From Flavobacterium sp. IB48 (GTDB lineage Bacteria; Bacteroidota; Bacteroidia; Flavobacteriales; Flavobacteriaceae), in assembly GCF_016405855.1 (NCBI RefSeq), contig NZ_JAEFCA010000006.1, positions 124,001 to 188,000 on the forward strand: a DNA stretch of 64,000 nt. The letters run 5' to 3'. Below are positions 3,847 through 8,888 of this stretch, piece after piece (position 1 is the stretch's first letter; every line of letters begins with the position of its first letter). The translations under genes were made by a program, and so were the position numbers. The notes under the pieces were generated by a model that saw nothing but the letters and a program-made list of their open reading frames with translations, searched no databases and was not told the DNA's origin.

Positions 3847-4677
3847 ATGAAAAATTCCCAAATTAAAATCTCAAATTCTAATAGAATTTTTCAGATTACT
3901 CTTTTGTTTATCACATTATTTATCAGCAATGCTATTTTTGCTCAATTTGATATTCCCAAAAAGCCTGATTTCCAAACTTCTGTTTACGATTATGCAAATG
4001 TTTTAAGCGCTTCTGAAAAAACACAATTAGAAGAAAAATTAGTTCGTTACTCCGATTCTACCTCTACTCAAATTGTTGTTATTACTATCGAAAGCCTAAA
4101 AGGTGAAGATATTGGCATTCTTACTCCTAAATGGGCTCAAGAATGGGGAATCGGACAAGCTAAAGAAGATAATGGGGTTTTAATTTTATTGGCTAAAGCC
4201 GAAAGAAGAATCTGGATTTCTCCTGGTTATGGACTTGAAGACCGACTTACGGCCGGTATTGGTGGAGAAATCACAAGAAATATTATCATTCCAGAATTTA
4301 AAAAAGGAAGTTATTACAACGGTCTTGACAAAGGAGCCGATGCGCTTTTTGATGTTTTTAAAGGAAAATACAAAGGCGAACGCAAACAGAACAAAGGACA
4401 AGACTTTCCTTTTCTGCCTTTTATTGTAATTGTTGTTATTGTTTTAATTCTGCTTTCTCGAAATAAAAGAGGTGGTGGCGGAAATTCAGGCAACAACGGT
4501 GGCGGTGGCCCTAGTTTACTTGATGCTATTATTCTAAGTAATCTTGGAAGAAGCGGAGGTGGATTTGGAGGATTCGGAGGCGGATCATCTGGAGGCGGTT
4601 TTGGCGGAGGCGGTGGCTTCGGCGGAGGCTTTGGAGGCGGAGGATTCTCTGGAGGTGGTTCTGGAGGAAGCTGGTAA
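3847..4677 (+). CDS. TPM domain protein with signal peptide and Gly-rich tail (YgcG type)
   Basis: Envelope protein of 276 aa. It has an N-terminal signal peptide or anchor (about residues 15-36, ending in NAIFAQ), a TPM domain (about 45-180, with SVYDYANVLSASEK and GYGLEDRLTAGIGGEI), one transmembrane segment (about 195-207, FIVIVVIVLILLS), and a C-terminal low-complexity tail made mostly of GGG/GGF/GGS repeats. This layout matches the YgcG family, whose members pair with LemA. The tail ends in SGGSW, a common terminus in the family. It is the last gene of the lemA-TPM-TPM operon. Confidence 0.9.
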   Translation: MKNSQIKISNSNRIFQITLLFITLFISNAIFAQFDIPKKPDFQTSVYDYANVLSASEKTQLEEKLVRYSDSTSTQIVVITIESLKGEDIGILTPKWAQEWGIGQAKEDNGVLILLAKAERRIWISPGYGLEDRLTAGIGGEITRNIIIPEFKKGSYYNGLDKGADALFDVFKGKYKGERKQNKGQDFPFLPFIVIVVIVLILLSRNKRGGGGNSGNNGGGGPSLLDAIILSNLGRSGGGFGGFGGGSSGGGFGGGGGFGGGFGGGGFSGGGSGGSW

Positions 4678-4770: not shown

Positions 4771-5184
4771 ATGTTATCACATAAAGCAAAATACGCCCTT
4801 AAGGCCTTACTTTATTTAGCAGAACAAGACGAAAATCACATTTCTAGAACTGTAGAAATTGCTGATGGAGCGAATATTCCTAAAAAGTTCCTAGAACAGA
4901 TTTTACTGGATCTAAAACGCGGTCGTTTTGTAAGCAGTAAGCAAGGAAAATTTGGTGGATATTATCTGATAAAATCTAAAAACGACATTACTTTGGCAGA
5001 AATTCACCGATTATTTGACGGTGCAATTGCACTTTTGCCATGTGCTTCTTTAAATTTTTACGAACCTTGTTCTGATTGTAAAACCGAGTCTGAATGCAGT
5101 CTGCGTCACGGTCTAATGCTTATTAGAGACAAAACTTTGAAGGCCATGGAAGGCATTACAATCGCTTCTCTTGTAAAAAAATAA
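4771..5184 (+). CDS. Rrf2 family transcriptional regulator
   Basis: Winged-helix regulator of 137 aa. It opens with MLSHKAKYALKALLYLAEQ and the recognition region IPKKFLEQILLDLKRG, both typical of Rrf2. The loop that holds the iron-sulfur cluster in IscR-like members has cysteines here too (CASLNFYEPCSDCKTESEC), but spaced as in CymR/YwgB-type sulfur regulators rather than classical IscR; this assignment is tentative. The gene is followed by a 36-codon leader ORF and a TonB receptor, so these are plausible targets. A cofactor or sulfur-metabolite signal is an inference. Confidence 0.9.
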   Translation: MLSHKAKYALKALLYLAEQDENHISRTVEIADGANIPKKFLEQILLDLKRGRFVSSKQGKFGGYYLIKSKNDITLAEIHRLFDGAIALLPCASLNFYEPCSDCKTESECSLRHGLMLIRDKTLKAMEGITIASLVKK

Positions 5185-5226
5185 AAAAATATTTTCTAAA
5201 GTCTAGTAAATCGATAGAATTAATTA

Positions 5227-5234
5227 TATATTTG
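5227..5234 (+). promoter_or_regulatory. Bacteroidota -7 promoter element (TATATTTG)
   Basis: The octamer TATATTTG matches the Bacteroidota -7 consensus TAnnTTTG and lies 40 bp before the start of the short leader ORF at 5274. No good -33 TTTG is seen at the right spacing. A weak dyad centred on ATCGAT lies just upstream at about 5205-5220 and could be an operator for the neighbouring Rrf2 protein; that is a guess. Confidence 0.5.
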
Positions 5235-5273
5235 CCAAAAATAATTAACTAATCATTTACAAAATTTTAACTC

Positions 5274-5384
5274 ATGAAAGTACATTCTAGTAAATCAGGT
5301 GGACAAAATCTTTTGCAAAAAAACTATAATTATAAATTCACAACTGTGAATACTGGTTCATTTATGATGTGTATGTGTTGGTAA
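5274..5384 (+). CDS. Short leader ORF ending in a Met/Cys cluster (36 aa)
   Basis: An ATG-started frame of 36 codons between the Rrf2 gene and the TonB receptor. It reads MKVHSSKSGGQNLLQKNY and ends NTGSFMMCMCW before a TAA. Five of the last six sense codons are Met or Cys, which is very unusual. It sits 40 bp after a -7 promoter element and 48 bp before the receptor start. The likely role is a regulatory leader or uORF whose translation reports Cys/Met supply, or a small peptide in its own right. No terminator hairpin is obvious after it, so a classic attenuator is not proven. I do not recognise a named family. Confidence 0.55.
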   Translation: MKVHSSKSGGQNLLQKNYNYKFTTVNTGSFMMCMCW

Positions 5385-5432
5385 AAAAAATTTAATTTTA
5401 AATTCTACTAATCACATATACTTAATATAAAA

Positions 5433-7994
5433 ATGAAAACATCTATAAAAAATATACTTACAATACTTGCAGTTTTAACGTTCTCAATCTCATTCGCACA
5501 AAAAATAGACGGGGTTGTAACAACAGATCAAAATATTCCTTTAGAAGCAGCGAACGTGGTTATTAAAGGAACAACTTTTAGTGCAATTACAGACTCTGAA
5601 GGAAGATTTTCGATAGAATCACAAGGAAAATTACCGCTTACCCTTTTGGTTCAATACATTGGCTACAACACTGCCGAACTTGAAATCACGGCTATTCCAG
5701 CTTCACCTCTATTGGTTACTTTACGTGAAGAAAACAAACTTGTAGAAGTTGTAGTTTCTTCAAGAAGAAGAATAGAAAAAGTACAAGATGTGCCAATTGC
5801 TGTTTCGGTAGTTACAGGAAAACAAGCGGAAGCGGCTGGAGCATTTAACGTAAACCGTATTAAAGAATTGGTTCCTTCTGTTCAGTTGTATTCTTCTAAC
5901 CCAAGAAATACAGGAATCAATATTAGAAGCTTAGGTTCTCCTTTCGGATTAACAAATGACGGTATCGATCCTGGAGTTGGTTTTTATGTTGATGGTGTTT
6001 ATTATGCACGTCCAGCAGCGACTACTTTAGATTTTATTGACGTAGAACAAATCGAGGTTTTACGTGGTCCACAAGGTTCTTTATTCGGAAAAAATACAAC
6101 TTCTGGAGCTTTTAACATTACTTCTCGCAAACCAAGTTTTACTACTGGTGCCGATTTTGAACTTAGCTACGGAAATTATGCCTTTTTACAAGCTAAAGCT
6201 TCTGTTACAGGAGCATTAGGAAAAAAAGTGGCAGGTCGTTTATCTTTTTCTGGAACACAAAGAGATGGTTTAATCGATAACATTGCTACAGGAAGACCTA
6301 CAAATACTTTAAACAATCAAGGTTTTAGAGGACAATTATTATGGACTCCTACTGAAAATACAAACGTTACTTTTGCAGGTGACCTTACCACACAGCGTCC
6401 TGACGGATATGCGCAGGTTGTTGCTGGTGTTGCCCCTACTAAAAGGGCTGCATACCGTCAGTTTGATGCTATTATCGCCGATTTAAATTATCAATTGCCA
6501 AGTTTAAATGCTTTTGATCGTAAAATTGATCATGATACTCCTTGGCGTTCTGGACAAGATTTAGGAGGAGTTTCATTAAATGTCGATACAAAAATTGGAG
6601 GTGGAACACTTACTTCTACAACAGCATGGCGCTTCTGGAATTGGGATCCATCAAATGATAGAGATTTTACAGGATTACAGGTTTTAGCTAAATCTCAAAA
6701 CCCAACAAGACAAACACAAATTACACAAGAGGTTCGTTATGCTGGACAAATAACTTCAAAAATAAGCGGTGTTGGTGGAGTATTCTTTATTGATCAAACT
6801 TCTCAAACAGATGGTACAGAAGAATCTGGAAATGCACAATGGAGATTCTCTCAAAGCTCAACTAGCCCACTATGGAAAACACCAGGTCTTTTTGAAGGTT
6901 ACGGTATCCATACTGATGCAAGAATTAGAGCTTCGAGCGCAGCAGTATTTGGTCAGCTTGATTGGTCAGTTACAGAAAGATTCCACATTTTACCAGGTTT
7001 GAGATATAATTTTGATAAAAAAGACGCAAGTTATTCTCGTAAAACTTACGGAGGTCTTCAAACAACAGATCCTGCCTTATTGGCTTTGAAAAAATCAGTT
7101 TACTCAGATCAAGCATTTGACTCAGATACAGACAATACAGATTTTTCTGGAAACTTAACGCTTACTTACAAAGCATCAGACAAAATCAATGCTTATGCAA
7201 CATTTGCTAAAAGTTACAAACCAGTTGGAGTTAACGTAGCTGGGCTTCCAACAAACTCAGCAGGACAGCCAATGACTGAACTTGCTGTAGTTAAACCAGA
7301 AAAAGTATATCATTACGAAGTTGGAGTAAAAACATCTCCGTTTAAGAACTCTATTTTAAACTTAACACTATTTAATACTGACATCAAAGATTTCCAAACT
7401 AACGTTCAGGCAGCCGAATTAGGTGTAAACCGCGGTTATCTTGCAAATGCTGATAAAGTACGTGTAAGAGGTGCAGAATTGGATGCGAGCTTTGTTATCA
7501 ATTCACACATAACGATAAATGGTGCTGCTACTTATACAGATGGTAAATATGTGAAATTTACAAATGCACCGCTTCCGTTAGAAGAAACAGGACTTACTGT
7601 TGATGGAGTTCAGGTAGCTTATAAAGATGTTTCTGGAACTGATTTACCAGGTGCTTCAAGATGGGCTGGTTCTCTTGGAGGTGAGCTTTCTGATCATGCA
7701 AAATTCTTTGGTAATGCTGGAAAAATTTTCTTTGCTGCTGATAGTTACGCTCGTTCTGAATTTTCTTCAAGCCCTTCGGCTTCAAAATATTTAGTAGTTC
7801 AAGGTTATGCAATCTTTAATGCTCGTTTAGGTTTCCGTGCTTCGCAAGGTTTATCTATTCAAATTTGGGGAAGAAACCTTTTCAATAAAGATTACTATGA
7901 GCAATTATTGCCTGCAAGTGGTAACACTGGACAATATGCTGGAGTTCTTGGTGATCAAAGAACTTACGGAGTTACTTTTAAGTATTCACTGTAA
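5433..7994 (+). CDS. TonB-dependent outer-membrane receptor with carboxypeptidase-like N-domain
   Basis: Outer-membrane importer of 853 aa. It has a signal peptide (residues 1-22, ending SISFAQ), then a CarboxypepD_reg-like domain (about 25-95), a plug domain with VQDVPIAVSVVTGKQAE and IEVLRGPQGSLFGKNTTSG (about 115-230), and a 22-strand-type beta barrel ending in FKYSL with a terminal aromatic/Leu pattern. The plug resembles the Fe/small-molecule TonB receptors rather than SusC, and no SusD gene follows. The Rrf2 regulator and Cys/Met leader upstream suggest uptake of a sulfur-containing or sulfur-linked compound; this is inference. Confidence 0.92.
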   Translation: MKTSIKNILTILAVLTFSISFAQKIDGVVTTDQNIPLEAANVVIKGTTFSAITDSEGRFSIESQGKLPLTLLVQYIGYNTAELEITAIPASPLLVTLREENKLVEVVVSSRRRIEKVQDVPIAVSVVTGKQAEAAGAFNVNRIKELVPSVQLYSSNPRNTGINIRSLGSPFGLTNDGIDPGVGFYVDGVYYARPAATTLDFIDVEQIEVLRGPQGSLFGKNTTSGAFNITSRKPSFTTGADFELSYGNYAFLQAKASVTGALGKKVAGRLSFSGTQRDGLIDNIATGRPTNTLNNQGFRGQLLWTPTENTNVTFAGDLTTQRPDGYAQVVAGVAPTKRAAYRQFDAIIADLNYQLPSLNAFDRKIDHDTPWRSGQDLGGVSLNVDTKIGGGTLTSTTAWRFWNWDPSNDRDFTGLQVLAKSQNPTRQTQITQEVRYAGQITSKISGVGGVFFIDQTSQTDGTEESGNAQWRFSQSSTSPLWKTPGLFEGYGIHTDARIRASSAAVFGQLDWSVTERFHILPGLRYNFDKKDASYSRKTYGGLQTTDPALLALKKSVYSDQAFDSDTDNTDFSGNLTLTYKASDKINAYATFAKSYKPVGVNVAGLPTNSAGQPMTELAVVKPEKVYHYEVGVKTSPFKNSILNLTLFNTDIKDFQTNVQAAELGVNRGYLANADKVRVRGAELDASFVINSHITINGAATYTDGKYVKFTNAPLPLEETGLTVDGVQVAYKDVSGTDLPGASRWAGSLGGELSDHAKFFGNAGKIFFAADSYARSEFSSSPSASKYLVVQGYAIFNARLGFRASQGLSIQIWGRNLFNKDYYEQLLPASGNTGQYAGVLGDQRTYGVTFKYSL

Positions 7995-8144: not shown

Positions 8145-8888
8145 TTGAAAGGATCTTTTAAACTATTTTTCACTTTACTCTTTATTAGCCAACTAATTAC
8201 AGGGCAAAACCAAAGAAATATCGACCAGCAAACTCTAACCTGGATTCGTTATTATAATATTTTTCCCTTGTCCGAAAAGTGGGCGCTTCATTCTGAGTTT
8301 GATAATAGAAGTTTTGTAAATCCTGTTCATGAAAGCCTTTTTGTCATTAGATCTCAAGCTAGATATCGGGCCAATAAAATGATTGAAGTTGGAGCTGGAT
8401 TTGCTTTTTTCAATGTAAATACCCAAAATCCGTATGTTGATCCTGATTATTCTGTTCCTGAATATAGAGGGCAACAAGATGTAACTCTGATTAATGATCT
8501 TGCTAAAATCACTTTTCACAACCGTTTTCAGTTAGAAGAACGCTTCATTCAAAAAGCAGACAAAAACGGACTCTTGGACGAATTTTCATATGCTTTCCGA
8601 TTTAGATATCGTTTACAATCCATGTTTACCCTTTGGGAAAAAGAAGGCAGAAGCATAAAAGGAACTATTTCAGACGAAGTTCTTTTTAATTTCGGAAAAG
8701 ACAATCGCAAAAATACATTCGATCAAAACCGTTTTTATGTTGCTTTGCGTTATCACTTCAATCCAAATCTTGGTGTAGAATTGGGTTATTTAAAGAACTT
8801 TCAAAGACGCGCAAGTGGTGTAGATTTCTATGATCGTGATATTTTCAGACTTACGGTTTATCATCGAATTAATCGAAAAAAGTTATGA
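8145..8888 (+). CDS. DUF2490 family protein (secreted, beta-barrel-like)
   Basis: A 247-aa exported protein. The frame opens with a TTG at 8145 giving a good signal peptide (residues 1-20, ending LITGQ); no in-frame ATG is available upstream, so the TTG start is accepted. Alternating hydrophobic strands with motifs such as WALHSEFDNRSFVNP and FRFRYRLQSMFTLW fit the DUF2490 family of predicted outer-membrane barrels. It follows the TonB receptor after a terminator, so it is probably a separate unit. Function is unknown. Confidence 0.85.
   Translation: MKGSFKLFFTLLFISQLITGQNQRNIDQQTLTWIRYYNIFPLSEKWALHSEFDNRSFVNPVHESLFVIRSQARYRANKMIEVGAGFAFFNVNTQNPYVDPDYSVPEYRGQQDVTLINDLAKITFHNRFQLEERFIQKADKNGLLDEFSYAFRFRYRLQSMFTLWEKEGRSIKGTISDEVLFNFGKDNRKNTFDQNRFYVALRYHFNPNLGVELGYLKNFQRRASGVDFYDRDIFRLTVYHRINRKKL

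Follow-up and report, generated by a model that had tools for sequence, protein, structure and literature searches.

A candidate cysteine-sensing leader ORF upstream of a TonB-dependent receptor of Flavobacterium, with Cys-rich short ORFs at homologous loci

A short open reading frame (ORF) located between the genes for an Rrf2-family regulator and a TonB-dependent receptor in Flavobacterium sp. IB48 is probably a sensor of cysteine, and possibly of methionine, which would control translation of the downstream receptor, transcription presumably being under the separate control of the Rrf2 protein. The conclusion comes from sequence comparisons and RNA folding models. The DNA analyzed, hereafter the window, is a stretch of 64,000 nucleotides (nt) from contig NZ_JAEFCA010000006.1 (positions 124,001 to 188,000) of a 5.6 Mb genome. 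The window receptor groups with those of Flavobacterium, the nearest being that of Flavobacterium sp. ACN2 at 97%.

Leader ORF and its conservation in Flavobacterium

The leader (MKVHSSKSGGQNLLQKNYNYKFTTVNTGSFMMCMCW) had been picked out in an earlier, sequence-only reading of the window as a 36-codon ORF ending in MMCMCW, set between a -7 box and the receptor start; both the ORF and its placement are found as described (Table 1). Met or Cys is encoded by five of the final six codons. Such an end, rightly held to be improbable by chance, is unique among the 636 window ORFs that start with ATG and span 10-60 codons, and no ORF of this kind emerged from 40 mononucleotide shuffles of the window. 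The leader stop is 48 nt away from the receptor ATG. The leader ATG is 39 nt downstream of the -7 box, a distance which, the start site being taken from the predicted promoter, speaks against a leaderless transcript. The peptide has no match in Pfam or NCBIfam, and features C-M-C rather than the consecutive Cys found in some homologues of other genera.

Since a search by leader pattern alone would be circular, loci were collected by receptor in 101 genomes of the genus (orthologue threshold E up to 1e-100). A receptor orthologue is present in 34 genomes, and all 34 loci carry an ATG leader frame of 30-37 codons with an M-C-M-C-like Cys/Met end, the stop falling 48-62 nt before the receptor ATG. 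In two genomes (G046 and G092; G and L numbers denote genomes and loci) the open frame extends upstream of the leader, whose start was assigned by position. Leader bodies diverge widely, terminal codons are retained. Ends include MMCMCC, MMCMC, LCMCMC, MMCIC, MMCMYMC, YMCLC, MMRMCQ and MMRMCCY; the residues after MCMC vary (W, C, CL, Q, SQKK or none), Trp being kept in part of the genus. Leader bodies stay open upon shuffling in 7.9% of cases on average, and each of the two alternative frames is open in 3 of the 34 loci. The 34 rows are related, and do not correspond to 34 independent tests.

An additional sample of 395 genomes of the phylum gave the receptor (E up to 1e-200) in 26, 15 of them in the genus, 4 previously covered. 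The 11 new genus loci all retain the Cys/Met end, 9 with at least two Cys within five codons; in several the ORF start is an internal ATG as called by the script. Ends with a single Cys are MMRMCQ in G005, MMCMWW in L201 and IMYMC in L203. Loss of the peptide end in related genomes, named in the sequence-only reading as the finding that would speak against the leader, is therefore seen neither in the 34 loci nor in the 11. The leader pattern alone matches in 15 of the 101 genomes; one match, in G026, falls in another ORF and was discarded as due to chance. A leader hidden Markov model run over 249 genomes of the family matched two genus genomes only, because the leader body is not conserved.

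Hairpin over the terminal codons and proposed mechanism

In Flavobacterium the Cys/Met codons and the stop form the 5' arm of a predicted hairpin, in which GUGUAUGUG pairs with CACAUAUAC just upstream of the receptor, and whose outer extension reaches the receptor ATG. Across 32 distinct rows of the alignment 86.7% of cells are paired, vs. 17-51% with slid partners. In L044 and L045 the leader ATG is changed to ATA and the partner has T for C; four other rows feature that T as a G-U pair.

Translational attenuation by shortage of cysteinyl-tRNA is the favoured mechanism. With ample charged tRNA-Cys, ribosomes would finish the leader fast, and the MCMCW and stop codons would refold onto the segment just 5' of the receptor start, masking the ribosome-binding region. 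When Cys is short, the ribosome would halt at the terminal Cys codons and cover the 5' arm, the receptor start would be freed, and more receptor made. We infer accordingly that the leader is translated, that ribosomes stall on it, and that the response runs from Cys shortage to increased receptor synthesis.

The stall was modelled by partition function with a ribosome-sized mask on the 34 genus sequences. The receptor start region, with a mean openness of 0.41, reaches 0.69 when the ribosome is placed at the first terminal Cys, and the gain is larger than 0.15 in 30 of 34 sequences; at codon 12 openness is 0.41, and the gain exceeds 0.15 in one sequence. When the intergenic segment is shuffled the mean gain drops from 0.28 to 0.04, the observed value being reached by 28 of 510 shuffles. 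As the modelled gain is mostly lost on shuffling, the intergenic segment seems built to react to a ribosome on the final leader codons.

Some results tell against this picture. The start region opens to the same extent (0.69) when the ribosome is modelled on the stop codon, and therefore discrimination of Cys would rest on dwell time. Covariation in the hairpin is not above shuffles, the three double-change cells being reached by 149 of 500 shuffles, and the score by 44 of 500. RNAalifold, run on the genus alignment, gave a 5-pair helix in another register and did not recover the long stem, and the whole leader of the window folds no better than shuffles (z -1.19).

Conversely, the hairpin might be all that is conserved, the MCMC peptide being a by-product of the pairing. 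The terminal codons do coincide with the well-paired 5' arm, and Flavobacterium Cys tracts pair strongly with the downstream sequence (14 loci, mean z -3.5). Yet in all 34 loci an ATG frame leads into the element and reads it as M-C-M-C or close to it; in 13 of 32 rows the second Cys codon is TGC instead of TGT, which breaks the pair at column 30 and leaves a Cys codon in all 13; and Cys-rich ORFs persist in other genera where no such pairing is seen (see below). A hairpin without a role for the peptide is thus quite improbable.

Table 1. Features of the window locus and related features at other loci
Feature	Locus	Position	Strand	Basis
Rrf2-family regulator, 137 aa, four-Cys loop; presumed transcriptional regulator of the locus	window	4771..5184	+	PF02082 E=1.9e-32
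Putative Rrf2 operator CTAGTAAATCGATAGAATT, imperfect inverted repeat abutting the promoter	window	5203..5221	+	alignment by eye, 34 rows
Bacteroidota-type -7 box TATATTTG	window	5227..5234	+	sequence; conserved in alignment
Leader ORF, 36 codons and stop (5382-5384)	window	5274..5384	+	MKVHSSKSGGQNLLQKNYNYKFTTVNTGSFMMCMCW
Terminal MMCMCW codons, candidate sensing codons	window	5364..5381	+	conserved M-C-M-C-like end
Hairpin 5' arm over the Cys/Met codons (MCMCW) and stop	window	5369..5383	+	predicted pairing
Hairpin 3' arm TACTAATCACATATAC, bulged T5412, 11 nt before the receptor ATG	window	5406..5421	+	predicted pairing, accessibility model
TonB-dependent receptor, 853 aa, CarbopepD_reg_2 domain; presumed target	window	5433..7994	+	PF00593, PF07715, PF13715
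DUF2490 protein, possibly in the same operon	window	8145..8888	+	PF10677 E=6.9e-36
Second Cys/Met-rich leader, own genome (G000:C35:78633 region)	L197 (6630-7020)	6685-6774		
Terminator-like hairpin after the second leader	L197	6807-6832		
tRNA-Cys in receptor leader, between TATATTTG box and receptor start	L065 (G194)	4165-4236	-	
tRNA-Cys between receptor and YeiH-like gene	L128	6548-6619		ARAGORN
tRNA-Cys directly after a permease gene	L159	7623-7694		ARAGORN
tRNA-Cys near ChrA	L126	1177-1249		ARAGORN

Cys-rich ORFs and sulfur context of homologous receptors

Homologous loci were obtained by scanning named genomes with the receptor alignment, the best 80 of at least 593 loci being retained; L131, where the contig starts inside the gene, was excluded from counts. 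ORFs of 6-60 codons within 250 nt upstream of the receptors were monitored for Cys, and compared with 100 rounds of dinucleotide shuffles. At least two Cys in five codons are found upstream of 28 of 65 non-Flavobacterium homologues (shuffle mean 4.85, maximum 10), at least three in 15 (shuffle mean 0.23, maximum 2), at least four in 7, a number of Cys not found in shuffles. Among 247 other genes of 79 loci, taken as control, the same three thresholds are reached by 27, 4 and 1. The 2-Cys test is passed by 25 of 53 loci from other Bacteroidota, 3 of 3 from Acidobacteriota and 14 of 14 from Flavobacterium. One of the four control matches with at least three Cys is 5' of CysD, confirmed by profile; of two more, judged by eye, one precedes a binding-protein-like gene immediately upstream of the receptor, the other a dehydrogenase-like gene beside it. 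Non-genus receptors of the phylum sample have at least two Cys in 6 of 11 cases and at least three in 4 of 11, one leader ending in CCCCCCC. The test is crude: L147, with the Cys run in a longer ORF, and L138, whose leader has one Cys, are scored as negatives, and L134, L154, L210 and L215 are weak-looking positives.

The Cys-run ORFs are unrelated in sequence, as shown by MYKKFTHSFFLPFLSTPLCCCCC (Sphingobacteriales), MKTRVRFKTKNQFYFLPLATSKYCCC (Flavobacteriaceae), MKPPIIPYCCCPKLGKQH (Dyadobacter), ...LSKKCCCCQ (Cytophagales), MNQYIYFPANRCCCCSG... (Pedobacter), ...KRMCC (Sphingobacterium) and MCCRPCCAAACCCMCIEPTIVR (Acidobacteria); runs of 4-5 Cys occur in some leaders. On a FastTree tree of 77 receptors (L174, L177 and L182 were omitted as too short) the Cys-leader label spans Acidobacteriota and several families of Bacteroidota, and needs at least 11 changes vs. 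25.4 in shuffles, gain and loss being indistinguishable.

Two alternatives fit these data poorly. In plain translational coupling, re-initiation would deliver ribosomes to the receptor start, the Cys codons being incidental. The leader stop is indeed close to the receptor ATG at all genus loci, and re-initiation at leader genes has been proposed earlier (PMC4833913); the conserved Cys end, and the unrelated Cys-rich ORFs before homologues, would however remain unexplained, and coupling alone has a very low probability. The leader might otherwise be an arrest peptide, stalling depending on a small sulfur ligand within the exit tunnel and not on tRNA charging. Conservation of the last residues, in part of the genus Trp among them, would suit such a peptide, but variable ends and mere Cys-richness in other genera fit codon reading better, and this is the least probable of the alternatives weighed here.

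Other observations tell against cysteine reading. The 2-Cys test is failed by 28 of 53 other Bacteroidota loci and passed by none of 9 Proteobacterial homologues. Outside Flavobacterium the Cys tract does not as a rule pair with downstream sequence (28 loci, mean z -0.4, 3 with p<0.05; in L117 the script took an overlapping wrong ORF). Close receptor orthologues are rare in other genera of the family, being found in 3 non-genus genomes of 249 (L064, L065 and L066); two of the three have no Cys-rich leader (an 18-codon Cys-free ORF in L064, none seen in L066). In the genome of IB48 no Cys-rich leader was found before the TauE-CysH-CysD-CysN genes.

The sequence-only reading had suggested a search for short ORFs with the same C-terminus upstream of receptors. 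An M-C-M-C-like end is present before receptors throughout the Flavobacterium loci and is missing in the three close non-genus orthologues; other genera have Cys-richness alone in common. A general hairpin rule was dropped, as the pairing test of 28 loci does not support it; outside Flavobacterium the readout may be transcription termination, Rho, or other structures. A GC hairpin with a T run lies between leader and receptor in L152.

Of 66 non-Flavobacterium loci, 22 have genes of sulfur type within ~4 kb, as searched by tblastn to reference genes. The set comprised relatives of CysN/CysD, YeiH, TauE, chromate transporters and PHO4/CysP genes. The CysN, CysD, TauE and chromate transporter assignments hold for representatives when checked by profile; YeiH-like and CysP-like proteins are below NCBIfam cut-offs. 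The transporters come from broad families, and neither PHO4 nor ChrA proves a link to sulfur. Rrf2 genes are nearby in 9 of 66 loci. In an acidobacterial locus (L167, ~7675-7760) the Cys-rich short ORF MSTCCRRACCCPDALG... precedes CysD, and Cys leaders may therefore also govern sulfate activation genes.

RNA elements point in the same direction. An Rfam search, which spanned 28 of the 80 named loci, found an S-box in the receptor leader of a member of Cytophagales (L132, 851-965), where no Cys-rich ORF passed the test. A tRNA-Cys gene sits in the receptor leader of one of the three close orthologues (L065), followed by a 20-codon ORF with CC (MKGPGTCCSGNFKHKNILFI) before the receptor; it is a second copy, the other, 84% identical, residing elsewhere in the genome. 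Of the 80 named loci, three, from three other genera, have a tRNA-Cys detected by ARAGORN beside or within receptor and sulfur-transport clusters (Table 1). Besides these, the 80 loci contain tRNAs for Phe, Pro (two, in one locus) and Lys, and an uncertain one.

A broader interpretation is that this receptor family of Bacteroidota and Acidobacteriota is controlled by interchangeable sensors of sulfur status in the mRNA leader, namely Cys-rich peptides (in about half of the tested homologues), M-C-M-C with hairpin in Flavobacterium, S-box in a member of Cytophagales, and tRNA-Cys beside a CC ORF in another genus of Flavobacteriaceae. We hold it tentatively, as having slightly less than an even chance. 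If true, an outer-membrane sulfur-acquisition regulon would be read largely through cysteinyl-tRNA. The sequence-only reading, which spoke of sulfur amino acids, is borne out in part: sulfur is supported by context (sulfur-type neighbours, riboswitches for S-adenosylmethionine (SAM) described below, Cys-rich ORFs), Cys is common, and Met is conserved in the Flavobacterium variant only, where it may be co-sensed or partly kept by RNA pairing. The receptor itself probably imports a sulfur source. Solved structures match it at a distance only (siderophore, haem, metallophore, colicin or pesticin receptors), and hence no cargo can be read from them.

Sensing of copper has also to be considered, since a Cys/Met-rich short peptide before a TonB-dependent transporter recalls CruR of Bordetella (DUF2946), a copper-responsive upstream ORF which likewise precedes such a transporter, acts post-transcriptionally and depends on its Cys residues (PMC9426467). 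The nascent C-x-C/Met end would bind Cu(I) and control a copper-type receptor. CruR is a 145-residue protein, predicted to be exported, with an internal CXXC 45 residues before RAPP (PMC9426467). The Flavobacterium leader has 36 aa, no RAPP, and no match to that family or to any other in Pfam or NCBIfam; its terminal Cys residues would presumably still sit inside the ribosome, and homologous loci carry sulfur-type genes, S-box or tRNA-Cys. Copper sensing is accordingly rated as quite unlikely. Codon-level sensing is favoured over an emerged metal-binding peptide because the Cys codons sit at the very end.

Further parallels are found in other phyla. Polycysteine leaderless short ORFs of mycobacteria are reportedly cysteine-responsive attenuators of operonic genes (Canestrari et al. 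2020). They share with the present leaders a Cys-coding short upstream ORF, but are leaderless and actinobacterial, whereas the Flavobacterium leader seems to have a 5' untranslated region; the leaders described here belong to Bacteroidota and Acidobacteriota, mostly precede an outer-membrane receptor, and in Flavobacterium place M-C-M-C over a hairpin predicted to sequester the start. The mycobacterial study is cited in PMC13236596. Candidate leaders with runs of Cys codons near the stop, found by comparative genomics before cys and cbs genes of Actinobacteria, date from 2005 (PMC1262725), in keeping with the earlier remark that Cys-responsive leaders exist in other phyla. Their targets are biosynthetic, and reportedly no conserved terminator hairpin is present in Mycobacterium (PMC1262725), unlike the Flavobacterium type, where a hairpin is predicted. 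Searches of the open-licence literature, a scope outside which most subscription papers and preprints fall, brought up no description of a Cys leader in Bacteroidota or before a TonB receptor. Cys-rich leaders of varied sequence before one receptor family point to a dedicated outer-membrane route for sulfur, offer a clue to the function of the family along with a list of candidate leaders, and make a case where sensors of different kinds seem to substitute for one another, or to be combined, at a single gene.

Rrf2 regulator, shared operator and downstream gene

The Rrf2 protein of the window scores above cut-offs for PF02082 (112.6 bits) and TIGR00738 (rrf2_super, 102.1 bits), and contains the Cys-rich loop noted earlier. 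The stretch C-x8-C-x2-C-x5-C is common to the Rrf2 proteins of the window, L067 (12937-13350) and L068 (12950-13351), and is possibly a metal or Fe-S site, judging from the pattern. CymR is an Rrf2-family cysteine regulator; the window protein belongs to the same superfamily and to a likely sulfur-related regulon, but differs by a score below the CymR equivalog cut-off (NF047409, 50.8 bits vs. 195) and by the four-Cys loop. The score is below cut-off also for the IscR equivalog of NCBIfam.

A CTACTAnnnnnATAGAATT-type inverted repeat lies directly 5' of the -7 box in the 34-row alignment, inspected by eye; the box was named after TAnnTTTG, which we take as the Bacteroidota consensus. The end of the Rrf2 gene is upstream of the operator in 33 of 34 rows, G046 being different. 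Transcription would be set by Rrf2 binding to the repeat, independently of the leader. A strict operator and promoter pattern is found at 33 places in 25 of the 101 genus genomes, vs. 2 for the reversed control. Receptor loci account for 24 of the 33 places; 6 of the 9 extra sites were read. A SAM riboswitch follows the operator at two extra sites (L072 and L097, in genomes G052 and G042). The S-box (SAM-I, RF00162) is seen behind the operator at these sites and, in L132, in the receptor leader; it differs from the Cys leaders in sensing SAM through an RNA aptamer. L028, which covers the window locus and flanks of 1.5 kb, has no match to it (E up to 0.1). A second Cys/Met-rich leader, MKNYSQNIRTSFPCCFAMCCMMNHVLKWR, is behind the operator in IB48, G006 and G088, frame-shifted in the latter. 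Downstream of it in IB48 come a hairpin resembling a terminator, with a T run, then a small PCC ORF and a Glu/Leu/Phe/Val dehydrogenase gene. SAM riboswitches and the second leader make it likely that the shared operator marks a sulfur regulon.

One-mismatch operator matches in the genome of IB48 were set aside as due to chance, 5 of the 6 read falling inside ORFs. An exact match at G000:C32:138595 (L100) has no evident target gene within ~500 nt. In L089 (G025), a genome where the receptor orthologue is missing at threshold, the operator follows Rrf2 and precedes a 473-aa porin-like ORF. In L177 the ORF MKKRMCCCCYEK precedes a dehydrogenase-like gene, as the second leader does in IB48. Downstream of the receptor, a relative of the DUF2490 gene is found in 11 of 12 genus neighbourhoods, the window included.

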